A stretch of DNA of 64,000 nucleotides from Sulfurihydrogenibium sp. YO3AOP1. Its GTDB lineage: Bacteria; Aquificota; Aquificia; Aquificales; Hydrogenothermaceae. Both the position numbers and the translations under genes were made by a program. This document shows positions 604 to 51,495 of this stretch, in pieces (position 1 is the stretch's first letter; each line of letters starts with the position of its first letter). The DNA lies in assembly GCF_000020325.1 (NCBI RefSeq), contig NC_010730.1, forward strand, positions 1,385,501 to 1,449,500, given 5' to 3'. Under the pieces are notes generated by a model. That model saw nothing but the letters and a program-made list of their open reading frames with translations, had not been told where the DNA came from and ran no database searches.

Positions 604-763
604 AGGTAAGAAGTTCAATAAAAGTATGAGATTCTTCGCTTCGCTCAGAATGACAAAAAATGCTTATCAATCAATCTTTAGCTGTCATCCTGAGGACATC
701 CTGAGGACATAAGTCCGATAGATCTTCTTTTTAAATTTTATAAAAACTGCTAATTTCTCATCT
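604..763. repeat. REP cassette, family A (copy 1)
   Basis: This stretch has no gene. It holds two facing REP units: GAGATTCTTCGC...AGAATGACA at 628-655 and TGTCATCCTGAGGAC...GATCT at 683-725, the latter with an internal 13-base repeat of the CATCCTGAGGA unit. Outer ends read GGTAAGAAGTTC on the left and TAATTTCTCATC on the right, which are degenerate versions of the family A ends. The site TGTCATCCTGA (683-693) is an uninterrupted copy of the sequence into which the IS110 element has inserted elsewhere in this window. A clear flanking duplication is not visible here. Confidence 0.7.
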
Positions 764-3275: not shown

Positions 3276-3965
3276 ATGAAATTATATTTATCTCCAATAG
3301 CAGTTTTTATGATAGGTTTTATTTTAGTATTTTCAACGTTTAAAAGCTATAACATTATCATTGTTGGAGAAAATCACACAGATGAGCTTGACCATAAAAA
3401 GCAGCTTGAAGTAATTAAAGATTATTATAAATATGATAAAAAAATCATCATTGCAATGGAGATGTTCCAGCAACCTTTTCAGGAGTATTTGGATAAGTAT
3501 ATTCAAGGTGAGATAGATTTAAACCAGCTTATAGAAAAAACAGAGTATAAAAAAAGATGGGGCTTTGATATTAATCTATACAAAGATATTTTAGAGTTTG
3601 CAAAAGAAAACAAGATAAGAATCGTTGCTTTAAACATTCCGTCTGAGCTACTGTCTGAAATTAGAAAGAAAGGATTGGAAAATATAGATTCTGCATATTT
3701 GCCAAAGCCAATTCCAAAGCACACACCGGAGGAGATAAAGTTTATTGATGAAGCAATTAAAGAGCATAAAAACATTAAAAATAAGCAGGCTTTTTATGAT
3801 ATCCAGCTTGCCTGGGACTACGGCATGGCATACAAAATATATGATACATATAAAAAATATCCTGATTATAAAATCATTGTTTTAATTGGCAAAGGTCATG
3901 CAAACACTGTAAAAAGATTTTTGAATATTTTAGATAGCAGTTTAAAAGTTTTTGTGTATGATTGA
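3276..3965 (+). CDS. ChaN-family (DUF399/Tiki-like) protein
   Basis: About 229 residues from the ATG at 3276. A hydrophobic N-terminus (LSPIAVFMIGFILVFSTF) is a signal anchor. Next come IIIVGENHTDELDH, a run of EMFQQPFQEYLDKYIQGEIDL, and a C-terminal VLIGKGHANTVKRF. The GENH and GxGH histidine motifs are typical of the ChaN/haem-binding uptake (Tiki-like) superfamily. ChaN of Campylobacter is a haem-binding lipoprotein, but this one has no lipobox cysteine. An upstream in-frame ATG at 3231 lacks a ribosome-binding site. The chosen ATG also lacks one, but it lies just 9 bases after a TATAAT (3261-3266), so a near-leaderless message is possible. Confidence 0.75.
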   Translation: MKLYLSPIAVFMIGFILVFSTFKSYNIIIVGENHTDELDHKKQLEVIKDYYKYDKKIIIAMEMFQQPFQEYLDKYIQGEIDLNQLIEKTEYKKRWGFDINLYKDILEFAKENKIRIVALNIPSELLSEIRKKGLENIDSAYLPKPIPKHTPEEIKFIDEAIKEHKNIKNKQAFYDIQLAWDYGMAYKIYDTYKKYPDYKIIVLIGKGHANTVKRFLNILDSSLKVFVYD

Positions 3966-4098
3966 AAAAACCCCCGTCGGTCCGGCAGGGAGTGAGATGG
4001 TTATTTTGAGTAATCACCCATTTTTTTACCATATTTAAAAACTATATTTCCCCCATTTTCTGACATAAATCTAAAATCCTTGATTATCTTCTCAAAAC

Positions 4099-4343
4099 AT
4101 TATACATTAGAAAGTGTGATTACCAATGTTTTGGGGTGAGAAATTAGTGATTTTTATAGAATTTAAAAATGAGACCCTTCGGCCTTATGGCCTCAGGATG
4201 GCCTCAGGATGACATAGAAAGCAAAAGCATGCTAACAATTACCTTATTTGTCATTCTGAGCGAAGCGAAGAATCTCATGTTTTTGTTAAATTTCTCACCC
4301 TAAAATATATTATACATTCATTAGAAAAAGTATGATTACCAAT
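4099..4343. repeat. REP cassette, family A (copy 2) with flanking direct repeats
   Basis: The cassette core at 4133-4300 begins GGGGTGAGAAATTAG and ends AAATTTCTCACCC. Inside are two facing REP units (4173-4214, containing the target-type sequence TCAGGATGACA at 4204-4214, and 4250-4278). Outside lie imperfect direct repeats at 4099-4127 and 4309-4343, which share ATTATACATT, AGAAA and TGATTACCAAT in the same order. This fills the gap between the ChaN-like gene and nfeD. The right repeat lies just upstream of the nfeD ribosome-binding site. Confidence 0.75.
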
Positions 4344-4365
4344 AACTTAATACATGGAGAACAAA

Positions 4366-5655
4366 ATGGTTAAGATTTTAACAGCTTTGTTAATGATTTT
4401 TAACTTTTCATATGCAACTATCATAGTTGGAAAATGGAATGACCCAATCACACCAACAACGATAGATTATGTCAATAGAATAGTAAATACAGCAGAAGAA
4501 AAATCAGCAAAGGCTATAATCCTACAGCTTGATACACCCGGTGGATTAGAGACATCAATAAGAGAGATAATAAAAACAATCCAAAAAACAGATATTCCGT
4601 TTATAGTTTATGTGTATCCAAAAGGTGCAAGGGCGGCATCTGCCGGTGCTATCATCACAATATCGGCAGATGTAGCAGCAATGGCTCCGGCAACAAACAT
4701 AGGCTCAGCATCCCCTGTGTCTATGGAAGGCAAAGACATAGAAGAGACAATGAAAAAGAAAGTAATGAACGATATGGTAGCATTTGTTAAAAGCATTGCT
4801 AAAGAAAAAGGAAGAAATGAAGAAATTGCAGAAAAAATGATTACAGAAAGCATAAACCTTACATCAGAAGAAGCATTAAAAAGTAAAATAATAGACATAA
4901 TAGCAGAAGATTTAAATGATTTAATCTTAAAGCTTGATGGTAAAAAAGTTATAAAAAATAATAAAGAGATTACTCTTAATCTAAAAAATCAGCCGATTGA
5001 ATTTGTAGAGCTTAATTTTAAAGAAAAACTTTTAACAATTTTATCAAATCCAACGGTTGCATATTTCTTATTGATGATAGGATTTTATGGAATTTTCTTT
5101 GAGCTTTACAATCCCGGCTCTATCATCCCCGGAACGGTTGGAGCAATCTCTCTTGCACTGGCTTTATATTCTCTTAATATCATCTCTGCAAACTGGCTTG
5201 GTGTGATTTTGATAGGTTTAGGTGTTTTATTCTTTATCTTAGAGATGATAACTCCGTTGTTTGGTGGGCTTGCTGTTGCCGGTGTTATATCCTTAGCTCT
5301 TGGGTCTATTATTTTAATCCCTTCCGATTCAGCTTATGGTGATATATCATTGCAAGTAATCATTCCAACGGTAATTTTCAGTGCTGTATTTTTCTTTTTA
5401 GTGGCATACAAAGGTGCAAAAATTCAAAGAGAAAAACCAAAAACAGGCTCAGAGGCTATGATTGGAGATAAGGCAGTGGCTTATACAGACATTAATAAAG
5501 AATGCGGGAAGGTGATGTATCACGGCGAGCTTTGGTTTGCTTACTCAGATGAAGAGATAAAGAAAGATGAAACGGTAATCATAGAAAAAGTAGAAGGTTT
5601 AAAGTTAAAAGTTAGGAAAGCTAAGCCAAATGATGAGTTAAGCTGTGGAATCTGA
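4366..5655 (+). CDS. nfeD: Long-form NfeD: membrane serine protease (ClpP class)
   Basis: About 429 residues. A signal peptide (MVKILTALLMIFNFSYA) is followed by a ClpP-like protease domain. This has LQLDTPGG near residue 55, and the nucleophile-serine strand ASAGAIITISAD preceded by the catalytic region YVYPKGARA. After residue about 225 come four to five membrane segments, and the end is an OB-fold NfeD domain (GDKAVAYTDI...VEGLKLKVRKA). It acts in the membrane, classically with a stomatin-type SPFH partner, which is absent next to it here. The start at 4366 is chosen because GGAG (4356-4359) sits 6 bases upstream. The ATG four codons earlier overlaps that site. Confidence 0.9.
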   Translation: MVKILTALLMIFNFSYATIIVGKWNDPITPTTIDYVNRIVNTAEEKSAKAIILQLDTPGGLETSIREIIKTIQKTDIPFIVYVYPKGARAASAGAIITISADVAAMAPATNIGSASPVSMEGKDIEETMKKKVMNDMVAFVKSIAKEKGRNEEIAEKMITESINLTSEEALKSKIIDIIAEDLNDLILKLDGKKVIKNNKEITLNLKNQPIEFVELNFKEKLLTILSNPTVAYFLLMIGFYGIFFELYNPGSIIPGTVGAISLALALYSLNIISANWLGVILIGLGVLFFILEMITPLFGGLAVAGVISLALGSIILIPSDSAYGDISLQVIIPTVIFSAVFFFLVAYKGAKIQREKPKTGSEAMIGDKAVAYTDINKECGKVMYHGELWFAYSDEEIKKDETVIIEKVEGLKLKVRKAKPNDELSCGI

Positions 5656-5866
5656 GATTTTGGTATAGCTAAGAATGAGACATCCTTTCTTCGTTATCCT
5701 AAGGCTGTAAAGCTGAAAGATCTACTCCTTTTAATGTTTTTTTTAAAACAGGAGATTCTTCGCTGACGCTCAGAATGACACTGTAGAGGTAAAAAGGTGG
5801 AAGATTCTTTACACGGCTTCAGAATGACAAATTGAAACAATCTTTAATTTAAGTTGTGGTATCTGA
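5638..5866. repeat. REP cassette between 18-bp direct repeats at the ends of nfeD and queC
   Basis: Direct repeats TTAAGCTGTGGAATCTGA (5638-5655) and TTAAGTTGTGGTATCTGA (5849-5866) match at 16 of 18 positions. The left copy encodes the end and stop of nfeD. The right copy, read on the other strand, encodes the end and stop of queC. Between them lie three degenerate REP arms (about 5671-5715, 5752-5781 and 5799-5828). The arrangement fits an insertion that duplicated its target and so gave the two convergent genes related 3' ends. Confidence 0.7.
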
Positions 5867-6517
5867 AAAAGTTTCTCTTAAAGCCTCTTCTCTCTGTCTG
5901 CAGGTTGCACACTCTCCGCAGGGTGGAACGGTTCCTTTATAACAAGAGTATGTTTTTTCAAATGGAACTCCAAGCTCCCTGCCAAGTTTTGCAATATCTG
6001 TTTTACTCATGCCCAAGAATGGAGTAAAAATCTTTATTCTGTTTTTCTTCTTTGCTACCATCACAGAACTTGCATTTATAACCGCTTCTGCAGATGATGC
6101 AAACTCCGCCCTGCAGTCTGGATATGGTGAGTCTAAGGAATGTATGCCAATTCCTATATTTTCTATCTCATAAACATCAGCAAACGATGCTGCTATTGAC
6201 AAAAATATTAAATTTCTCATTGGTACAGTTGTTATCGGTGGCTCATCCGGATAGTTTTCTGATGGAATTTCTAAATTCTCATCTGTTAAAGCACTTCCTT
6301 TAAGCTGTTTTAGGTGTGGCACTTCAACGATAAAATGCTCCTTTACGCCTGCAATTTTTGAAAGTTCTTTTGCATATTCAAGCTCTATACTGTGTTTTTG
6401 TCCATAAGAGTAAGATATAGTATATACATCTTTAAATATAGTTTTTGACAGCCATAGTAAAACAGCACTATCCATTCCACCGGACAATAAAACGATTATA
6501 TTTTCTTTCTTTAACAT
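5849..6517 (-). CDS. queC: 7-cyano-7-deazaguanine synthase
   Basis: 222 residues. QueC converts 7-carboxy-7-deazaguanine to preQ0 using ATP and ammonia, for queuosine in tRNA. The PP-loop LSGGMDSAVLL is at residues 11-21. The zinc site is made of the cysteines in YSCYKGTVPPCGECATCRQREEAL near the C-terminus, and the HSLDSPYPDCR segment is typical. It begins one base after the prfB stop, so the two are co-transcribed. The last residues (FSDTTT) and the stop lie inside the direct repeat of the neighbouring REP cassette, so the native C-terminal tail may have been replaced. Confidence 0.95.
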   Translation of the reverse strand: MLKKENIIVLLSGGMDSAVLLWLSKTIFKDVYTISYSYGQKHSIELEYAKELSKIAGVKEHFIVEVPHLKQLKGSALTDENLEIPSENYPDEPPITTVPMRNLIFLSIAASFADVYEIENIGIGIHSLDSPYPDCRAEFASSAEAVINASSVMVAKKKNRIKIFTPFLGMSKTDIAKLGRELGVPFEKTYSCYKGTVPPCGECATCRQREEALRETFSDTTT

Positions 6518-13042: not shown

Positions 13043-13355
13043 TAAACAACCTCAATCATTTTAAGATAATATTTTATCATGTTAGGATGTGGAAATGTAA
13101 ATTGACTTTAAGGATGTTCTAAAATTTTAGCAAGTTTATCTTCATTACGTCATCTTGAGGATTTTAGTCCAAAGGTTCTCCTCTTTTAAAAAGTGAGGAG
13201 GCAAAAAAGTGAGAAGTAATATTTAGAAAGGTAGGAGATTCTTCACTAACGCTCAGAATGACGAATATGAGGACTGTTAACGTATGGCTTTCACTTTCTT
13301 TGTCATCGTATATTAAATATACTAAAAATTTTTTAAACTATAAGAGAATAAGTTT

Positions 13356-13361
13356 TATAAT
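13356..13361 (+). promoter_or_regulatory. Likely -10 box for bridge RNA and transposase
   Basis: TATAAT lies about 28 bases before the first stem of the structured RNA, with an AT-rich TTTAAA-type -35 near 13332. The identical sequence is present upstream of copy 2 (39514-39519). This would produce one transcript covering the RNA and the transposase. No terminator is visible between the two. Confidence 0.4.
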
Positions 13362-13388
13362 AATTATAGACATGGGAGAAAAAAAGAA

Positions 13389-13528
13389 GGACAGATCAAG
13401 TTTCTGTCATTGGTCTTTTAAGACCGATCAGGATGTTTTAGACTGTCCTTCCTCTACTTCCTAAAACCTGAATCAGAACATTAGGCTTTTAAGCCTGTAT
13501 TTAACTACGATGATAGGTTATCAGGAAG
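13389..13528 (+). ncRNA. Bridge RNA of IS110 copy 1 (predicted)
   Basis: Two stem-loops in a row have the layout of an IS110 bridge RNA. Target loop: outer stem GGACAG (13389-13394) with CTGTCC (13443-13448); left guide TGTCAT (13405-13410); inner hairpin GGTCTT/AAGACC (13412-13425); right guide TCAGGATG (13428-13435). Donor loop: outer stem CTTCCT (13457-13462) with AGGAAG (13523-13528), plus ACCT/AGGT; left guide AGAACAT (13475-13481); inner hairpin AGGCTT/AAGCCT (13483-13496); right guide TACGATG (13506-13512). The target guides equal one strand of TGTCAT and the other strand of CATCCTGA in the REP site. The donor guides equal the element's own right end (AGAACAT, 15871-15877) and the complement of its left end (CATCGTA, 13304-13310). 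The exact RNA ends are not known. Confidence 0.85.
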
Positions 13529-14030
13529 TTTCTTTCATGTCAAGTATTTTATGAAAGGAGGTACTATTATGAACAGCTACAAAATTGTTATAGGAGTTGA
13601 TGTATCTAAAAACTCATTCACTGCTACAGTTTTGTATGATAACAAGAAAGAAACTTTTGAAGTTAAATCTGACCCGGTTGAGTTTGAAATGAAAATAAAG
13701 CCTTACCTTAAGAAGTTTAAAAAGTCAGATATGCTTATCATAATGGAACATACGGGAGTTTACCATTTAAAGCTTGCTAATTATCTGTATGAAAATGGTT
13801 ATAAAGTAGCAGTAGTAAATCCATTTTCAATAAAGAAATTTATGGAAGCTAAAATGACAAGAGTTAAAACAGATAAAGCTGATTCATTCTTTATAGCAGA
13901 GTATGGAAGAACGTTTTTCGATGGAGAGCTTTATAAACCAAAATCAGATGTAGAAAAAGAAATAGAAGTAAAACTAAAGATATTGGAAGACTTACAACAG
14001 CAGCTTACAATGCTAAGAAACAAAAGAGAA

Positions 14031-15327: not shown

Positions 15328-16050
15328 AAAGAGAATCATTAAGTCATGTACCAATGAAAAAATTGAAAGAGAATTTAGAATATTACGATGAGCTAATTAG
15401 AAAAATAGAAAAAAACATAAAAGAACTTGAGAAAGAGATAAAAGAATTGTCTAAGAAGAATTATCAAGAGGAATACAAACTTTTAAAAAGCATACCTGGT
15501 ATAAGTGATAGGACTATAGGAATGATAATATCAGTATATGGAAATTTTGAAAGATTTAAGAGTGTAAAAGATATATCGAGTTTTATAGGAATCAGTCCAA
15601 GCCCATATGAAAGTGCAGCATGTGTAAAGAAAAGTGGCTGGATAAAGAAGATGGGAAATCCATATGCAAGGAAAATATTATACATGGCAGCATTATCAGC
15701 AATAAGGTTTAACAAATACTGCAGAGAATTATACGAAAGATTAGTAAGTAAAGGTAAGGCTAAAAAGTTAGCATTAGTGGCTGTAGCACATAAGTTATTA
15801 AGGCAAGCATATGGTGTATTAAAAAGCAGAAGACCATTTGATGAAAATTTTTGTACTTGACATTTAACATAGAACATCCTGAGGACCTTAGTCCGAAGGA
15901 TTTCTTTTTTTAAAAACCGGGAAAATAAGAAGTGAGATGTAAAAAAGGGAGATGATTCTTCGCTTATGCTTAGAAGGACGATCAGAAAGTCAATTAATTT
16001 TTTGACTTAATCAAAATTTTAAAGCACTCTCAAATATACTCAAAAAAGAT

Positions 16051-24322: not shown

Positions 24323-24523
24323 CGTGAATTATGAGAATGTTCTAATATTTTTGTAAATTTACCTTCTCACGTCATCCTGAGGACTTTAGTCCGATGGACC
24401 TCCTGATTTAAAGAAGGTGAGAAAGTAAGTAGAGGCAATTCATGAATTGCCCGTACAGTGATAAGTGAGAGTAAAAGAACGGAGATTCTTCGTTAAAATT
24501 TAAAAGCACTCTCACGTAAATTA
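24322..24523. repeat. REP cassette, family B (copy 3) with 10-bp duplication and a second palindrome
   Basis: ACGTGAATTA (24322-24331) and ACGTAAATTA (24514-24523) flank the cassette, matching at 9 of 10. Ends read TGAGAATGTTCTAATATTTT and AAAATTTAAAAGCACTCTC. It contains one good REP unit (GTCATCCTGAGGACTTTAGTCC, from 24369), a partial REP arm near 24481, and an unrelated palindrome GGCAATTCATGAATTGCC (24434-24451). Confidence 0.75.
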
Positions 24524-24729: not shown

Positions 24730-25137
24730 TTATTCCTCTTTCTTACACTCTGGACAGATGCCATAAACTTCAATGCTATGGTCTAAAATATCAAATCCAT
24801 GAACTTCTATCAACTCTTCTTTAAACTTTTCAAACGGGCAGTTATCAATAATTACAATCTTTTTACATTTTTGGCAAATTAAGTAATTCTTCTTAGAAGA
24901 AAGACCAAACCTTGCTTTATCTTCTCCAATCATGTAAGCTTTGACTACCAATCCTTGTTTTTGAAGCATATCAAGATTACGATAGATAGTAGATAAACTT
25001 ATATCAATTCCTTTTTCTTTTAGCTTTAAATAAATATCCTCTGCATGAACAGGTATTTTACATTCTTCCAAAACTTCTAAGATTGCCTTTCTTTGTTTTG
25101 TTGCTTTAAATCCTTTTGGTATGATTAACTTTTCCAT
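24730..25137 (-). CDS. Fur-family metal-dependent repressor
   Basis: 135 residues. The winged-helix N-terminus reads ATKQRKAILEVLEECKIPVHAEDIYLKLKEKGIDISLSTIYRNLDMLQKQGLV. The dimerisation domain has two CxxC pairs, CQKCKK and CPECKKEE, forming the structural zinc site. The family includes Fur, Zur and PerR, and residues here do not settle which. The regulator lies between a TonB uptake set and metE, whose promoter carries a Fur-type 7-1-7 palindrome, so both neighbours are candidate targets. Its ribosome-binding sequence is part of the 15-bp repeat flanking a REP cassette. Confidence 0.9.
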   Translation of the reverse strand: MEKLIIPKGFKATKQRKAILEVLEECKIPVHAEDIYLKLKEKGIDISLSTIYRNLDMLQKQGLVVKAYMIGEDKARFGLSSKKNYLICQKCKKIVIIDNCPFEKFKEELIEVHGFDILDHSIEVYGICPECKKEE

Positions 25138-25139
25138 AA

Positions 25140-25369
25140 CTCTCCTTTATATTAGAATAAAGCTTACTTTTCATCAATTCTTCTTTGTCATCCCGAGGTC
25201 GAAGACTCTCCTCTTTTAGACAAAAGGAGAAGAGATTCTTCGCTTACGCTCAGAATGACACCATTGGATCGTTCTTTGTCATCCTGAGGCCGTAAGGCCG
25301 AAGGATCTCATTTTAAATTCTATAAAAATCGCTAATTTTTCATCCAAGATATAGCTCTCCTTTATATTA
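25140..25369. repeat. REP cassette, family A (copy 3), inserted in the fur-like gene's leader
   Basis: The 15-bp direct repeat CTCTCCTTTATATTA occurs at 25140-25154 and 25355-25369. Between the repeats lie three REP arms: 25189-25215 (degenerate), 25233-25261, and 25277-25310 (a full unit TGTCATCCTGAGGCCGTAAGGCC...GATCTC). The right end reads CTAATTTTTCATCC. The left repeat supplies the Shine-Dalgarno of the fur-like gene. The right repeat keeps the ancestral leader copy, so the insertion probably pushed the original promoter about 215 bp away. Confidence 0.75.
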
Positions 25370-36132: not shown

Positions 36133-36338
36133 TATTTTATCAATAATCATATAAAAAATACCTTGGGGTTTTTATAAAATTTAAAAATGAGATCCTTCGG
36201 CCTTACGGCCTCAGGATGACAGATAAAGCGAAAGCATGTTAACAATTACCTTATTTGTCATTCTGAGCAAAGCGAAGAATCTCATGTTTTTATTAAATTT
36301 CTCACCCGACGTATTTTATCAATAATCATATAAAAAAT
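36133..36338. repeat. REP cassette, family A (copy 4) between 27-bp direct repeats
   Basis: A 27-base direct repeat (TATTTTATCAATAATC and the following 11 bases) lies at 36133-36159 and 36312-36338. The insert between them (36160-36311) holds two facing REP units: 36189-36221, including TCAGGATGACA at 36211-36221, and 36256-36284. It ends with AAATTTCTCACCC. The right repeat codes for part of the RND protein (FYMIIDKI). The left repeat keeps the same frame open as far as a TGA at 36085-36087 that overlaps the alcohol dehydrogenase ATG, so the insertion probably split a formerly coupled gene pair. Confidence 0.82.
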
Positions 36339-39388: not shown

Positions 39389-39546
39389 GGAATTAGTAAA
39401 GCTATTCTAAAATTTTTGCAAGTTGTAGAATGTATATGTAAATATAACTTTACCTTTTTGTCATCGTATATTAAATATACCAAAAATTTTTTAAACTATA
39501 AGAGAATAAGTTTTATAATAATTATAGACATGGGAGAAAAAAAGAA

Positions 39547-39686
39547 GGACAGATCAAGTTTCTGTCATTGGTCTTTTAAGACCGATCAGGATGTTTTAGA
39601 CTGTCCTTCCTCTACTTCCTAAAACCTGAATCAGAACATTAGGCTTTTAAGCCTGTATTTAACTACGATGATAGGTTATCAGGAAG
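39547..39686 (+). ncRNA. Bridge RNA of IS110 copy 2 (predicted)
   Basis: The sequence is the same as in copy 1, shifted by 26158 bases. The target loop has outer stem 39547-39552/39601-39606, guides TGTCAT (39563-39568) and TCAGGATG (39586-39593). The donor loop has outer stem 39615-39620/39681-39686, guides AGAACAT (39633-39639) and TACGATG (39664-39670). The guides agree with the REP half-sites flanking the element and with its own ends. The complete conservation of this non-coding stretch between the two copies supports a functional RNA. Confidence 0.85.
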
Positions 39687-39726
39687 TTTCTTTCATGTCA
39701 AGTATTTTATGAAAGGAGGTATTCTT

Positions 39727-40713
39727 ATGAATGGCTACAAAATAGTCATAGGAGTTGATGTATCTAAAAACTCATTCACTGCAACAGTTTTGTATGATAA
39801 CAAGAAAGAAAATTTTGAAGTTAAATCTGACCCAGTTGAGTTTGAAATGAAAATAAAGCCTTATCTTAAAAAGTTTAAAAAGTCAGATATGCTTATCATA
39901 ATGGAGCATACGGGAGTTTACCATTTAAAGCTTGCTAATTATCTGTATGAAAATGGTTATAAAGTAGCAGTAGTAAATCCATTTTCAATAAAGAAATTTA
40001 TGGAAGCTAAAATGACAAGAGTTAAAACAGATAAAGCTGATTCATTCTTTATAGCAGAGTATGGAAGAACGTTTTTCGATGGAGAGCTTTATAAACCAAA
40101 ATCAGATGTAGAAAAAGAAATAGAAGTAAAACTAAAGATATTGGAAGACCTACAACAGCAGCTTACAATGCTAAGAAACAAAAGAGAATCGTTAACCTAT
40201 GTACCAATGAAAAAATTGAAAGAGAATTTAGAATATTACGATGAGCTAATTAGAAAAATAGAAAAAAACATAAAAGAACTTGAGAAAGAGATAAAAGAAT
40301 TGTCTAAGAAGAATTATCAAGAGGAATACAAACTTTTAAAAAGCATACCTGGTATAAGTGATAGGACTATAGGAATGATAATATCAGTATATGGAAATTT
40401 TGAAAGATTTAAGAGTGTAAAAGATATATCGAGTTTTATAGGAATTAATCCAAGCCCATATGAAAGTGCAGCATGTGTAAAGAAAAGTGGCTGGATAAAA
40501 AAGATGGGAAATCCATATGCAAGGAAAATATTATACATGGCAGCATTATCAGCAATAAGGTTTAACAAATACTGCAGAGAATTATACGAAAGATTAGTAA
40601 GTAAAGGTAAGGCTAAAAAGTTAGCATTAGTAGCTGTAGCACATAAGTTATTAAGGCAGGCATATGGTGTATTAAAAAGCAGAAGACCATTTGATGAAAA
40701 TTTTTGCACTTGA
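39727..40713 (+). CDS. IS110-family DEDD recombinase (transposase)
   Basis: 328 residues from the ATG at 39727, chosen because an AAGGAGG site lies just upstream. The in-frame ATG at 39709 overlaps that site. The N-terminal RuvC-like domain carries D11 (VIGVDVSKN), E60 (IIMEHTGVYH), D102 and D105 (KTDKADSFF). A coiled coil spans about 125-200. The C-terminal Tnp domain (SIPGISDRTIGMIISVYGNFERF...INPSPYESAACVKKSGWIKKMGNPYARKILY) holds candidate nucleophile serines S243 and S247. In this family the enzyme uses a bridge RNA to join donor and target DNA. It could act on both copies in trans. Confidence 0.95.
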   Translation: MNGYKIVIGVDVSKNSFTATVLYDNKKENFEVKSDPVEFEMKIKPYLKKFKKSDMLIIMEHTGVYHLKLANYLYENGYKVAVVNPFSIKKFMEAKMTRVKTDKADSFFIAEYGRTFFDGELYKPKSDVEKEIEVKLKILEDLQQQLTMLRNKRESLTYVPMKKLKENLEYYDELIRKIEKNIKELEKEIKELSKKNYQEEYKLLKSIPGISDRTIGMIISVYGNFERFKSVKDISSFIGINPSPYESAACVKKSGWIKKMGNPYARKILYMAALSAIRFNKYCRELYERLVSKGKAKKLALVAVAHKLLRQAYGVLKSRRPFDENFCT

Positions 40714-43835: not shown

Positions 43836-44072
43836 ATTATTATAATTCATTATTCATTAGTGTTTAAATATGTCAGGTGAAAAATTCAATAAAAGTAGGA
43901 GATTCTTTGCCGGCTGCAGAATGACAAATAAGGTTATCCTTTCTCTGATACCTATCATTCAACTTTTTCCCGTCATCCTGAGGACGTAAGTACGAAGGAT
44001 CTCATTTTTAAATTCTATAAAAATCACTAATTTCTCACCCCCAAAGTATTATTATAATTCATAAGTGTTAAA
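43836..44072. repeat. REP cassette, family A (copy 5) with flanking repeats
   Basis: The core at 43874-44040 begins CAGGTGAAAAATTC and ends AATTTCTCACCC. It contains facing REP units (43891-43925 and 43972-44003). Outside, 43836-43868 and 44048-44072 are imperfect direct repeats sharing ATTATTATAATTCAT and AGTGTT. Immediately to the right another partial cassette starts (next entry). Confidence 0.65.
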
Positions 44073-44094
44073 ATTTCATTAAATTGTTAATTTT

Positions 44095-45779: not shown

Positions 45780-46744
45780 AAATTTTAATCACCGGTGGAG
45801 CTGGTTTTATTGGAAGTGAATTTACAAGACAGGCTGTAAAAAAAGGCTTGGATGTTGTAGTTGTAGACAAATTAACATATGCTGGAGATTTAGAGAGACT
45901 CAAAGAAGTTGAAGAAAAAATTACATTTTACAAAGCAGATATTACAAACAAAGAATTTATTGAATATATCTTTAATAAAGAAAAGCCCAATATTGTAGTA
46001 CACTGGGCAGCAGAAAGTCATGTAGATAGAAGCATTTTAGACCCGACTCCTTTTATTGATACAAACGTAAAAGGAACACAGGTATTACTTGATGTTACAA
46101 GAGATAATAACGTTAAATTGTTTATAAACATAGCAACTGATGAAGTTTATGGTGAGCTTGGCGAAGAAGGTCAGTTTTATGAAACTACTCCACTTGTACC
46201 TAACTCTCCCTATTCTGTATCCAAAGCTTCAGCTGATATGCTTGGAAGAGCTTATTTTAGAACCTATGGATTACCATTAATCACTGTAAGACCATCTAAT
46301 AATTATGGTTGGTGGCAGTATCCAGAAAAACTTATACCGGTTGTTATTTTAAAAGCTTTAAGTAATGAACCTATCCCAGTTTATGGTCAAGGATTAAACA
46401 TTAGAGAATGGTTGTTTGTCTCTGATTGTGCAGATGCAGTTTTTGAAATTATAGAAAAAGGTAAAGTTGGAGAAATTTATAACGTTGGAAGCGGTCAAGA
46501 AAAAAGAAATATAGATGTTGTAAAATCTATTTTAAAAATATTAAATAAACCTGAAGATTTAATAACTTTTGTTAAAGATAGACCAGGTCATGATTATAGA
46601 TATTCATTAAATACGGATAAAATAAATAAGGAAATAGGCTGGAAGGCAAAGGTAAACTTTGAGGAAGGTATAGAAAAAACAGTTAAATGGTATTTGGACA
46701 ATTTAGACTGGGTTAATAGAAAGGTGAACTACTCCACCTTATAG
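45776..46744 (+). CDS. rmlB: dTDP-glucose 4,6-dehydratase, extreme C-terminus replaced by IS605 DNA
   Basis: 322 residues. It is an SDR enzyme that makes dTDP-4-keto-6-deoxyglucose. The NAD motif TGGAGFIGSEF is at residues 7-17. HWAAESHVDRSI, INIATDEVYGELG, and the YxxxK pair in NSPYSVSKASADM follow. The end KTVKWYLDNLDW is near the natural terminus, but the last residues (KVNYSTL) and stop read into the right end of the IS605 element. No rmlD follows, so the rhamnose pathway is incomplete in the window. Confidence 0.93.
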   Translation: MKILITGGAGFIGSEFTRQAVKKGLDVVVVDKLTYAGDLERLKEVEEKITFYKADITNKEFIEYIFNKEKPNIVVHWAAESHVDRSILDPTPFIDTNVKGTQVLLDVTRDNNVKLFINIATDEVYGELGEEGQFYETTPLVPNSPYSVSKASADMLGRAYFRTYGLPLITVRPSNNYGWWQYPEKLIPVVILKALSNEPIPVYGQGLNIREWLFVSDCADAVFEIIEKGKVGEIYNVGSGQEKRNIDVVKSILKILNKPEDLITFVKDRPGHDYRYSLNTDKINKEIGWKAKVNFEEGIEKTVKWYLDNLDWVNRKVNYSTL

Positions 46745-47940
46745 AAGGTGTGGCTTCCTGCTTCACAGCATGATGGCTTTTTAGGTACCCATTGCTGGAT
46801 ACGGTCATCCGCCAGAGCATGCTCCACAGGCTTGAATTCGGGTCGCTCCAACCCTACTTTGTATAAGTTTATAGATGCATTTACACCTCTATCGTGATGT
46901 GTCCCACATATAGGACATTGCCAATATCTATCAGACAGCTTCAACTGTTTATGTTTATACCCACATACATTACAGAGCTTAGAGCTTGGATAGAACCTGT
47001 CAGCTATAATGAGAGTTCTTCCATACCAATCTGCTTTATACTCTAAATATCTAACAAATGTTCCAAATCCGCTGTCTGATATTGATTTGGAGAGATATGG
47101 ATTTTGTTGCATACCTTTAACACTCAAATCCTCCACCACTATGACTTGGTTTTCGTCAATAATGGCTTTGGATAGTTTATGTAGAAAATCGTTTCTTAAA
47201 TTTGCTACATATTCGTGTTGTTTTGCTAACTTTCTTCTTGCTTTCTCAAAGTTTTTAGACCCTTTTTGTTTTCTTGATAATGCTCTTTGTAATCTCTTTA
47301 GTTTTTTCTCAGCTTTTAACAGATATTTAGGATGCTCTATCTTGTATGTCCCTGTATCATCTGTTATTGTTGCGAATTCTTTTAAGCCTAAATCTATACC
47401 ACAAATTTTGTTTTTAGATTGTTTTACTTTATTTTTAACATCTTCAGTTTCTACCAATATAGACACATAATAATTACCGCTTTTTGTTTTTGTAATGGTT
47501 ACAGATTTTATTTTCCCTTCGAACTTTCTATGCAATTTTATTTTTATTCCGTCTTTGATTTTCGGAAGATATAGTAGTCCTTTTTCGAAATCTATTTTGA
47601 TATTGTTCTTTACTTTGTTAGTTGTGTATGCCTGTTTGTCTTTTTTCTTTTTAAATTTAGGGAATTTATAGTGCTGTGGGTTTTTGAAAAAATTCTTGAA
47701 AGCTTTTTCTAAATTTAGTTGTGCGTTGGCAAGTGCTAAGCTGTCAACTTCCTTTAGAAAAGGAAACTCTTCTTTATACTTGGCGGGAGTAATTGTAGGT
47801 AGTGGTTGTTTATTTTTTAGAGCTTCTATTTTTTCTGCCAACATTTTATTCCAAACAAATCTAACACATCCAAAGGTTTTAGCAAAAAATATTCGTTGTT
47901 CTTTATTTGGATATATACGGTATCTATACGCTTTTAGCAT
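46729..47940 (-). CDS. tnpB: TnpB RNA-guided nuclease
   Basis: 403 residues, complete. The wedge/REC start reads LKAYRYRIYPNKEQ. RuvC residues lie in ICGIDLGLKEFATI (Asp), VIVVEDLSVKGM (Glu) and HHDRGVNASINL (Asp), with a zinc finger CNVCGYKHKQL...WQCPICG between. TnpB is the ancestor-type of Cas12 and uses an RNA made from its 3' end and the element's right end. Here the last codons (HTFYKVE) are the right-end hairpin itself, so that RNA would read out into rmlB sequence on the other side. It overlaps tnpA by 17 bases. Confidence 0.93.
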   Translation of the reverse strand: MLKAYRYRIYPNKEQRIFFAKTFGCVRFVWNKMLAEKIEALKNKQPLPTITPAKYKEEFPFLKEVDSLALANAQLNLEKAFKNFFKNPQHYKFPKFKKKKDKQAYTTNKVKNNIKIDFEKGLLYLPKIKDGIKIKLHRKFEGKIKSVTITKTKSGNYYVSILVETEDVKNKVKQSKNKICGIDLGLKEFATITDDTGTYKIEHPKYLLKAEKKLKRLQRALSRKQKGSKNFEKARRKLAKQHEYVANLRNDFLHKLSKAIIDENQVIVVEDLSVKGMQQNPYLSKSISDSGFGTFVRYLEYKADWYGRTLIIADRFYPSSKLCNVCGYKHKQLKLSDRYWQCPICGTHHDRGVNASINLYKVGLERPEFKPVEHALADDRIQQWVPKKPSCCEAGSHTFYKVE

Positions 47941-48340
47941 TGCCTTGACTCTTTATGTATTTCTGTATCATTTCCATAGGTGCTTCACCACTCGTAAGCA
48001 GACAGTAGCTTTTAGACCAAAAATGCTCTTTCCACAGATGCTTTCTAATTTCAGGAAATTGCTTTTTTATTATTCTTGAAGATGCACTTTTATAAGCATT
48101 TATAAATTTAGATAACTCTGTTGTAGGTTTTGCTTTGAATAAACAATGAACGTGATCTTCTTCACTTTCCCATTCCATTAGTGTTATTCCATAATTTTTG
48201 CCTATTTCTATGAACATCTCTTTAAGCTTCTCTGAGATGTCTTTGTTTATCACCTTTCTTCTATATTTAACAACTAAAATTAGATGATAGTATAGCAGAA
48301 ATACTGAATGTTTATTTGTATCAAATTTATTAGCATTCAT
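47924..48340 (-). CDS. tnpA: IS200/IS605 Y1 transposase
   Basis: About 138 residues from the ATG at 48340. The HUH motif is DHVHCLFKA, and the catalytic tyrosine lies in the helix IQKYIKSQG near the C-terminus. RHLWKEHFWSKSYCLLTSG is typical. The upstream in-frame extension to 48376 reads through the promoter and is not expected to be translated. A perfect sigma70-type promoter ends 7 bases before the ATG, implying a leaderless message. Catalytic residues are present, so it may still be active. Confidence 0.92.
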   Translation of the reverse strand: MNANKFDTNKHSVFLLYYHLILVVKYRRKVINKDISEKLKEMFIEIGKNYGITLMEWESEEDHVHCLFKAKPTTELSKFINAYKSASSRIIKKQFPEIRKHLWKEHFWSKSYCLLTSGEAPMEMIQKYIKSQGNAKSV

Positions 48341-48347
48341 ACGGATT

Positions 48348-48376
48348 ATTATAATACGAAACTGAATAATTGTCAA
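48348..48376 (-). promoter_or_regulatory. Promoter of tnpA
   Basis: TTGACA (48371-48376), a 17-base spacer and TATAAT (48348-48353) on the minus strand. The start codon lies 7 bases after the -10, so the message would start at or very near the ATG. The IS481-like insertion lies only 5 bases upstream of the -35 and leaves it intact. Confidence 0.75.
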
Positions 48377-49497
48377 GATGTTGTATAGGTCATACCAGTT
48401 TGGGAAAATTCCGATTTTCTTGAATTTATAATATCACAAAAGTATGCAATAGGTGATTTTTTGTTTAAACTATGATGAGGTCTTTCTATGTTATACCATA
48501 GCATATACTCCATCATTTTTTTATTAAACTCATAAACATCTTTTAATTCATAATCTTCGTAGTACATGATAAATTCATCCTGTAATGTCCTATTCATTCT
48601 CTCTACATATGCTTGTCCTTTTGGATATCTTGGATAGTTAAAATAATGTTTTATATCTTTTTTCTTTAATGCTTTGCTAAACTCGCCTAAGAATTCGCTC
48701 CCATTATCTGTTTGTATACCTTTTATCTCAAATGGTATTGCTTTTATTAATTTCTCTAAAAAGTCCTTTGCGTTTTTACTGTTTAGCCTGTCATATGCAA
48801 AAGTAAAAGAGATTCTTGTTTTTACATCCTTGGCTACAAATATATAAACTTTTCTACCATTTACATATTCATGCTTTGTATCTATTTGTACCAATTCTCC
48901 TGGTTTTGTTGGTTTTTTGTCTTTATATCTATCTTTCTTTGTTTTCTTTTTATCTTCTTTCACTATTAGCTTTCCAGTTCTTCCGTTGATTGTGATTCTT
49001 TGCCTGGCGTACTCATGATTTAACTTCCTTTCCTCTTTAAGCATTTTTATTATATTTCCAATTGAACTTGCAGATATCGTAGGAATATTGTGCTGCTTGC
49101 AGAGTTTATCAAGTAAAACCTTTATTTTTTCTTTCCCAAGCTTAGGATGTTTCTTTCTTATTTCTAAAACTAATTGTTTATGTTTTTCTGTTATTTTTTG
49201 TAATTTTTCTAATTTCATTCCTTTTTTTGATATATAACGATTTTTAAGAGATACAGGATTGTTATTACTGCTTTCATACTCTTTAATCCATCTGTATATG
49301 GTAGATTTTGATACACCAAAAGCTTCAACTGCAACCTTCACTGAATGTTTTAAAGCAAATTCTACTACTTGCAATCTAAAGATTATTTCTGGATGTTTTT
49401 CCATAACATCATCTAATTCTTTTACTTGTTTTAAAAGCTTTCTTTCAAGTGTATTAATTCTCTGAATGTAGGTAGATGTTCCTAATCTCTTTCTCAT
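48373..49497 (-). CDS. IS481-like DDE transposase
   Basis: 374 residues. An N-terminal helix-turn-helix reads VVEFALKHSVKVAVEAFGVSKSTIYRWIKEY, followed by a helical middle part and the rve integrase core. Here ELVQIDTKHEYVNG (Asp), GIQTDNGSEFLGEFS (Asp) and QAYVERMNRTLQDEF (Glu) give the DDE triad. WYNIERPHHSLNKKSPI is the typical C-terminal signature. The frame passes through the element's own end: the final codons and TGA lie in target DNA, inside the tnpA promoter's -35. Confidence 0.9.
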   Translation of the reverse strand: MRKRLGTSTYIQRINTLERKLLKQVKELDDVMEKHPEIIFRLQVVEFALKHSVKVAVEAFGVSKSTIYRWIKEYESSNNNPVSLKNRYISKKGMKLEKLQKITEKHKQLVLEIRKKHPKLGKEKIKVLLDKLCKQHNIPTISASSIGNIIKMLKEERKLNHEYARQRITINGRTGKLIVKEDKKKTKKDRYKDKKPTKPGELVQIDTKHEYVNGRKVYIFVAKDVKTRISFTFAYDRLNSKNAKDFLEKLIKAIPFEIKGIQTDNGSEFLGEFSKALKKKDIKHYFNYPRYPKGQAYVERMNRTLQDEFIMYYEDYELKDVYEFNKKMMEYMLWYNIERPHHSLNKKSPIAYFCDIINSRKSEFSQTGMTYTTS

Positions 49498-50916: not shown

Positions 50917-51079
50917 TTTTCCTCCGATTTATATTAAAAGTTTTAAAAAAATATAAGCTTGATAAAAATTTTTTTTGTTATTTGATTCACTATATCCATT
51001 ATACCTAAACACAGAAGACGACATTTTTTAAATTTTGATAATTTAATTGTTTTTATTTATATTCAAACCTATACTTTAA

Positions 51080-51293
51080 GTGAGAAATTGGTAAATCTTG
51101 TAAAATTCATCAAGAGATGTTTCGGACAAAAGTTCTGAGGATGAGTAAAGAGTAATGGGTAGTTAAATAGATGTCTCACGTCTCACCTTTTACGTACGGG
51201 CAATTTATGAATTGCCTCAACATACAAACCTCTAACTTATTCTCTTCTTACAGCCGAGAGAAGATTCTCATATCTTTATTGAATTTCTTACCC
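51080..51293. repeat. Degenerate REP cassette, family A, with a GGCAATT palindrome
   Basis: The left end is AAGTGAGAAATTGG and the right end TTGAATTTCTTACCC. Inside are a worn REP arm (near 51125), the palindrome GGCAATTTATGAATTGCC (51199-51216) and a second arm ending AGATTCTC. A related palindrome is found in the family B cassette at 24434. No clear flanking duplication is visible. Confidence 0.55.
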
Positions 51294-51495
51294 GATGTAT
51301 GATTTATTTTATGAATACGGTTTTATCTCTTTAATATAATGTCAATTATATTAAAAAATGTAGATTAAAATTTAAAGTGTAAATAATAATTGACAAAATT
51401 TATTCATTTATGATAACAAAAATCATTATGATAAAATAATACTTTAAGGATAATGATAATTACTTATAAACGTTGCGGTTTGGAGAAGTTTTTGA
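51294..51495 (+). promoter_or_regulatory. Leader of the initiating sugar transferase gene
   Basis: Very AT-rich. It holds TTGACA (51390-51395), TATGAT (51427-51432) and GGATAATGATAAT (51448-51460). The last resembles the GATAATGAT(A/T)ATC half of a Fur box. GGAG lies about 13 bases before the ATG at 51496. No clean promoter spacing is seen, so this is only a candidate regulatory region. Confidence 0.3.

Follow-up and report, generated by a model that had tools for sequence, protein, structure and literature searches.

We consider it probable (about 0.82), judging from sequence comparison, that the short REP cassettes of family A are MITEs and that an IS of approximately 0.97 kb related to IS982, with which they have inverted ends of ~17 bp in common, supplies the DDE transposase that mobilises them in trans. 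The assignment as MITEs of a DDE IS follows from the common ends, the DDE transposase encoded by the IS and the equally long target-site duplications (TSDs). The window denotes the whole stretch of 64,000 nucleotides that was analysed, positions 1385501–1449500 of contig C1 of a genome of 1,838,442 bp (G000). G004 and G006 are sister genomes and G045 is an order-level relative.

At least 40 family-A cassettes were detected genome-wide by DNA similarity search, among them the index cassette at 4129–4305 (Table 1). The cassettes are non-autonomous, approximately 175 bp long and bounded by inverted ends of ~17 bp (ACCTTGGGTGAGAAATT / ACGTCGGGTGAGAAATT). Intact copies of this length are asymmetric, with ACCTTGGGTGAGAAATTAG as the E1 end and ACGTCGGGTGAGAAATTCA as the E2 end. 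As in other MITEs, terminal inverted repeats are combined with a size too small for transposase coding. In the index cassette, the outermost bases are decayed at both ends (TTTTGGGG replaces ACCTTGGG) and an additional partial arm copy (GGCCTCAGGATG) follows the left arm. The end motif GGTGAGAAATT (≤1 mismatch) occurred 11 times in the window versus 2.0 times expected. A stricter 19-bp pattern consisting of the element end plus the flanking AT (≤2 mismatches) was found 157 times in this genome, 205 times in G004 and 124 times in G006, but G001 and G005 had only 11 matches each; the reversed-pattern control gave 0 matches apart from a single one in G005. An earlier note on this DNA had rightly described the cassettes as MITE-like with consistent ends. 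At the sequence level, they are MITEs that share their ends with complete ISs of relatives.

Table 1. Family-A elements, their parts and their flanking duplications in the window.
Feature	Position	Strand	Remarks
Left TSD copy, index cassette	4098..4127	+	matches 4308-4343; single copy at the empty site in G004
Family-A MITE, index (L001), length 177	4129..4305	+	end scan, alignment
Left terminal inverted repeat, E1 end, TTTTGGGGTGAGAAATT	4129..4145	+	
Left REP-like hairpin arm	4171..4200	+	alignment and fold
Right REP-like hairpin arm, opposed to left arm	4250..4276	+	
Right terminal inverted repeat, E2 end, AATTTCTCACCCTAAAA	4289..4305	-	points at downstream gene start
Right TSD copy, index cassette	4308..4343	+	
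Left TSD copy, second family-A MITE	36134..36159	+	26 bp, letter-perfect
Second family-A MITE, short left-end deletion	36160..36312	+	right 101 nt 94% identical to the 4129 copy
Right TSD copy, second family-A MITE	36313..36338	+	26 bp, letter-perfect
Left TSD copy, third family-A MITE	43836..43869	+	single-copy site in G006 (L195)
Third family-A MITE, reverse orientation, L021	43870..44047	-	
Right TSD copy, third family-A MITE	44048..44074	+	
Decayed family-A MITE, left end lost	25155..25350	-	flanks 25136-25154 and 25351-25369
Decayed family-A MITE, L012, without clear TSD	605..760	-	
Stretch of 226 bp, family-A-like ends, without clear TSD	51073..51298	+	end scan

TSDs were scored by alignment of the left-flank suffix to the right-flank prefix with indels allowed and a threshold score of ≥15. 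In a first set, this score was reached by 34 of 75 true flank pairs and by 0 of 855 mispaired ones. The 45 insertions scoring ≥15 in an enlarged set had TSDs of 22–38 bp (mean 28.6, sd 3.8), and length differed within this range even between near-identical copies. Letter-perfect duplications were present in 20 of the 45 and spanned 23–38 bp. Perfect TSDs of ISs measured 24, 33, 26, 27, 25 and 32 bp in G001/G005 and 23, 23, 24, 27, 27, 28, 28, 34 and 38 bp in G045, those of MITEs in the scored set 24 bp in this genome and 28, 30, 30 and 36 bp in G004; an additional IS in G034 has a TSD of 27 bp with one mismatch. Flanking repeats of unusual and variable length, as claimed in the earlier note, are thus present and exceed what mispaired flanks produce by chance, whereas the lower limit of 15–18 bp given there fails for intact family-A insertions. 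Three of its five cases, the index cassette and those at 36133 and 43836, held up, but the cassettes at 25140, which has lost its left end, and at 5638, which has no family-A ends, are poor or different cases and give no grounds for postulating short TSDs. The direct repeats of the index cassette are imperfect, with small indels, those of the third MITE match except for an indel of ~8 bp, and the 19-bp repeat at 25136/25351 is identical at 18 of 19 positions, with 19 bp as a lower bound on its length because the left element end is lost.

Single-copy empty sites were found in G004/G006 for nine family-A loci (L001, which is the index cassette, L003, L008, L015, L017, L021, L140, L162 and L165), several of them in both sisters. 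As the empty sites of the sister genomes carry one repeat copy, the flanking repeats are true TSDs, and the comparison favours insertion. Empty sites already holding both repeats, which according to the earlier note would speak against insertion, were not seen among them.

Four pairs of family-A ends in G001 are located 968 bp apart. The IS of 968 bp that is bounded by these ends in G001/G005, and in a version of ~967 bp in G045, codes for one DDE transposase of ~283 aa, and D117, D218 and E243 are invariant in nine homologues. The transposase matches the Pfam DDE_Tnp_1 and IS982 profiles weakly; the best profile is NCBIfam NF033520 (IS982), which is matched by 9/9 homologues, with 48.2 bits for the transposase and thus below the curated cut-off of 130. 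A search of solved structures by transposase sequence gave no match, and a fold search of the transposase returned weak matches to mariner Mos1 only (best E = 0.04). G045 contains 18 IS copies that are mostly 95–99% identical to each other and encode a transposase with ~49–50% identity to the query. One 28-bp TSD in G045 is divided between two IS copies, which is the pattern that recombination between ISs would leave. The window's genome has one decayed IS copy with both ends at 348799–349641 (839–843 bp) and a duplicated core of ~23 bp. Many contig edges of G004 carry IS ends or the terminal part of the transposase gene, as is common for multi-copy ISs in draft assemblies. From these contig edges and from G001/G005 we infer an active IS source. 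The IS family is present in 26 of 136 Aquificota genomes, and a profile scan of a wider bacterial collection yielded 15 loci, all with Aquificota lineage labels; a single-protein query in the first scan of the genome collection gave no match. At L041, an IS of G001, a run of nine G in the left flank adjoins the target duplication.

AT was the beginning of 38 and the end of 33 of 47 TSDs, compared to 0.21 expected inside (p < 1e-12), and in 33 of 94 cases the adjacent outer base was C (left edge) or G (right edge) (p = 2e-6). The AT content is 0.84 within TSDs and ~0.69 outside, which equals the window average. The targets are unrelated AT-rich tracts with the borders (C)AT...AT(G), and the letter-perfect duplications of the ISs place the element boundary at AC and assign the preceding AT to the target. 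The apparent target is roughly palindromic, (C)AT-N(18-34)-AT(G), which would fit two transposase subunits that each read one short signal on their own strand. The -10 box was rejected as target, because the ~2-fold enrichment of exact TATAAT is found on both strands and is not strand-specific, and the distance is not fixed; AT-richness explains most of the enrichment. Start codons were likewise rejected as target in G045, where junctions often read AT|G, yet several of these ATGs run into a stop within few codons (L118, L124). The G of these junctions is part of the target signature.

The length of a TSD usually mirrors the fixed spacing between the transposase active sites, a rule that is broken by a single-gene DDE transposase of ~283 aa with variable TSDs of 22–38 bp. 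Wide-stagger strand transfer is a possible reading of the origin of these TSDs and the one that we prefer. A transposase dimer would bind both element ends and capture an AT-rich tract, and the two 3′ ends would be joined to opposite strands beside two ATs that lie 22–38 bp apart and flank the easily melted tract. Filling of the wide gaps by host repair would then produce the long TSD, and its length would be variable because the choice of the second AT would allow slack in the distance. Insertion would not require the REP hairpins, which would be cargo of the MITEs. We propose tentatively, and at less than even odds, that a group of ISs confined to Aquificota branched off from IS982 and evolved a transpososome that spans a melted AT tract and joins its two ends at paired AT(G) sites with a spacing of ~22–38 bp. 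If true, a small DDE transposase would here have an integration geometry of its own, and both ISs and MITEs would land in promoter-type DNA, with the complete duplicated tract kept beside the gene. The near-identical multi-copy ISs, the abundant MITEs, the empty sites in sister genomes and the defined target signature make the mechanism directly testable.

Alternatively, insertion may proceed in two steps or from one end, with joining of one end followed by local unwinding or fork movement and a distant second join on the other strand, in which case TSD length would reflect the extent of unwound DNA. The variation from 22 to 38 bp even among near-identical copies would be explained in this way, and the duplications of IS1549 and IS1634 are very variable as well, with no agreed model (PMC2266710). 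We nevertheless regard two-step insertion as unlikely, since TSD lengths are confined to a narrow range (sd 3.8 bp) with no tail of very short or very long TSDs, and the same AT signature is present at both edges. It competes with the last step of the preferred reading only and leaves the relationship between MITEs and IS unchanged, and its sequence scar would be the same as that of a wide stagger.

The earlier note had suggested another mechanism than ordinary transposition, and of its proposals the staggered cut is possible and preferred here, whereas template switching or retro-insertion is very improbable. LINE-like target-primed reverse transcription does yield long, variable TSDs similar to those observed, but the autonomous element that shares the ends codes for nothing but a DDE transposase, and the ends are precise and carry inverted repeats, with no pattern of poly-A or 5′ truncation. 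With the cassettes being MITEs of a DDE IS that has the same ends and the same long TSDs, retro-insertion is needless. Pre-existing direct repeats, between which the cassettes would have moved in or out by homologous recombination, might account for the imperfect repeat pairs, but given the single-copy sites at nine loci, the lack of any observed two-copy site and 20 perfect, unrelated repeats that each begin exactly at the element ends, we hold this to be highly unlikely. The probability that a Cas1-like integrase moves the cassettes is negligible: such integrases duplicate CRISPR repeats of 28–37 bp, a comparable length, but the autonomous IS encodes a DDE transposase of its own within the ends that it shares with the cassettes, and insertion is into AT tracts that are unrelated.

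ISs of the IS982 family are 845–1282 bp long, encode transposases of 239–326 aa, follow the end consensus AC(N)6T(N)5TT and generate TSDs of 2–10 bp (PMC7335449). With 968 bp and ~283 aa, the IS described here is within both size ranges, and it further resembles the family in the DDE transposase, the matches of 9/9 homologues to NF033520 and the ends that begin with 5′-AC and have T at position 9. In the IS end ACGTTGAGTGAGAAATT, AC and T9 are present and TT is located at positions 16–17, with 15–16 expected for IS982. The differences lie in the TSDs (22–38 bp here versus 2–10 bp) and in the score of 48 bits versus the cut-off of 130. Since published TSDs of IS982 are only 2–10 bp (PMC7335449), the group, which is restricted to Aquificota, would appear to be a new, distantly IS982-like variant with long TSDs; ISfinder may already hold an Aquificota member. 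TSDs of unusual length are also known from the long-TSD subgroup of the IS1202 family (16–28 bp; PMC10132070), which differs in its TnsB-like transposase of 394–507 aa, its ends with 5′-TGT...ACA and its size of 1.3–1.75 kb (PMC10132070). The ~283-aa transposase and the AC ends rule out IS1202 as source. IS1549/IS1634 share long direct repeats of variable length, but at 8–514 bp these are far more variable than the 22–38 bp observed here, and the ISs are 1.5–2 kb long, with a large transposase and ends that begin with C (PMC2266710). They were excluded as source by the length of 968 bp, the ends beginning with AC and the ~283-aa transposase. For the variable TSDs of IS1549/IS1634, no mechanistic model had yet been proposed according to a 2008 review (PMC2266710).

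The opposed REP-like hairpins within the family-A cassette resemble REP/BIME elements with RAYT, from which the cassettes differ by their terminal inverted repeats and TSDs. BIMEs are not known to have such terminal inverted repeats or TSDs. In 9 of 31 copies, both sides of an A-U pair at the left arm's tip are changed to give C-G, and the hairpin therefore seems to be maintained. An Rfam search of window positions 3900–6000 gave no match. A REP-associated transposase was not found in the genome, and RAYT-driven REP mobility was ruled out because the sole Y1 protein (window 47924–48376) adjoins a TnpB-type gene. This gene (403 aa) and the only Y1 (TnpA) gene of the genome together occupy window positions 46729–48376 in an IS200/IS605-like arrangement, and a 374-aa ORF at 48373–49497, which by eye resembles an rve-type (IS481/IS3-like) transposase, is located directly upstream of the Y1 gene.

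In tandem gene contexts, defined by simple ORF calls around the insertions and counted after removal of shared insertions, the E2 end was directed toward the downstream gene start in 13 versus 4 cases (n = 17, p = 0.049). This orientation bias is suggestive and may reflect selection instead of targeting.

The 18-bp repeat at 5638–5655 / 5849–5866 is genuine and surrounds a REP-containing insert, whose empty site in G004 has one repeat copy. The insert has no AT edges and, since GGTGAGAAATT ends are absent, lies outside family A; it may represent another type of mobile REP cassette. Two repeat pairs, 15328–15627 / 40181–40480 and 13299–13598 / 39457–39756, are 98% identical and ~25 kb apart. 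A separate family of 32-nt inverted repeats (GGCAATTCATGAATTGCC) is represented at 24425–24456 / 51194–51225 with 91% complementarity.
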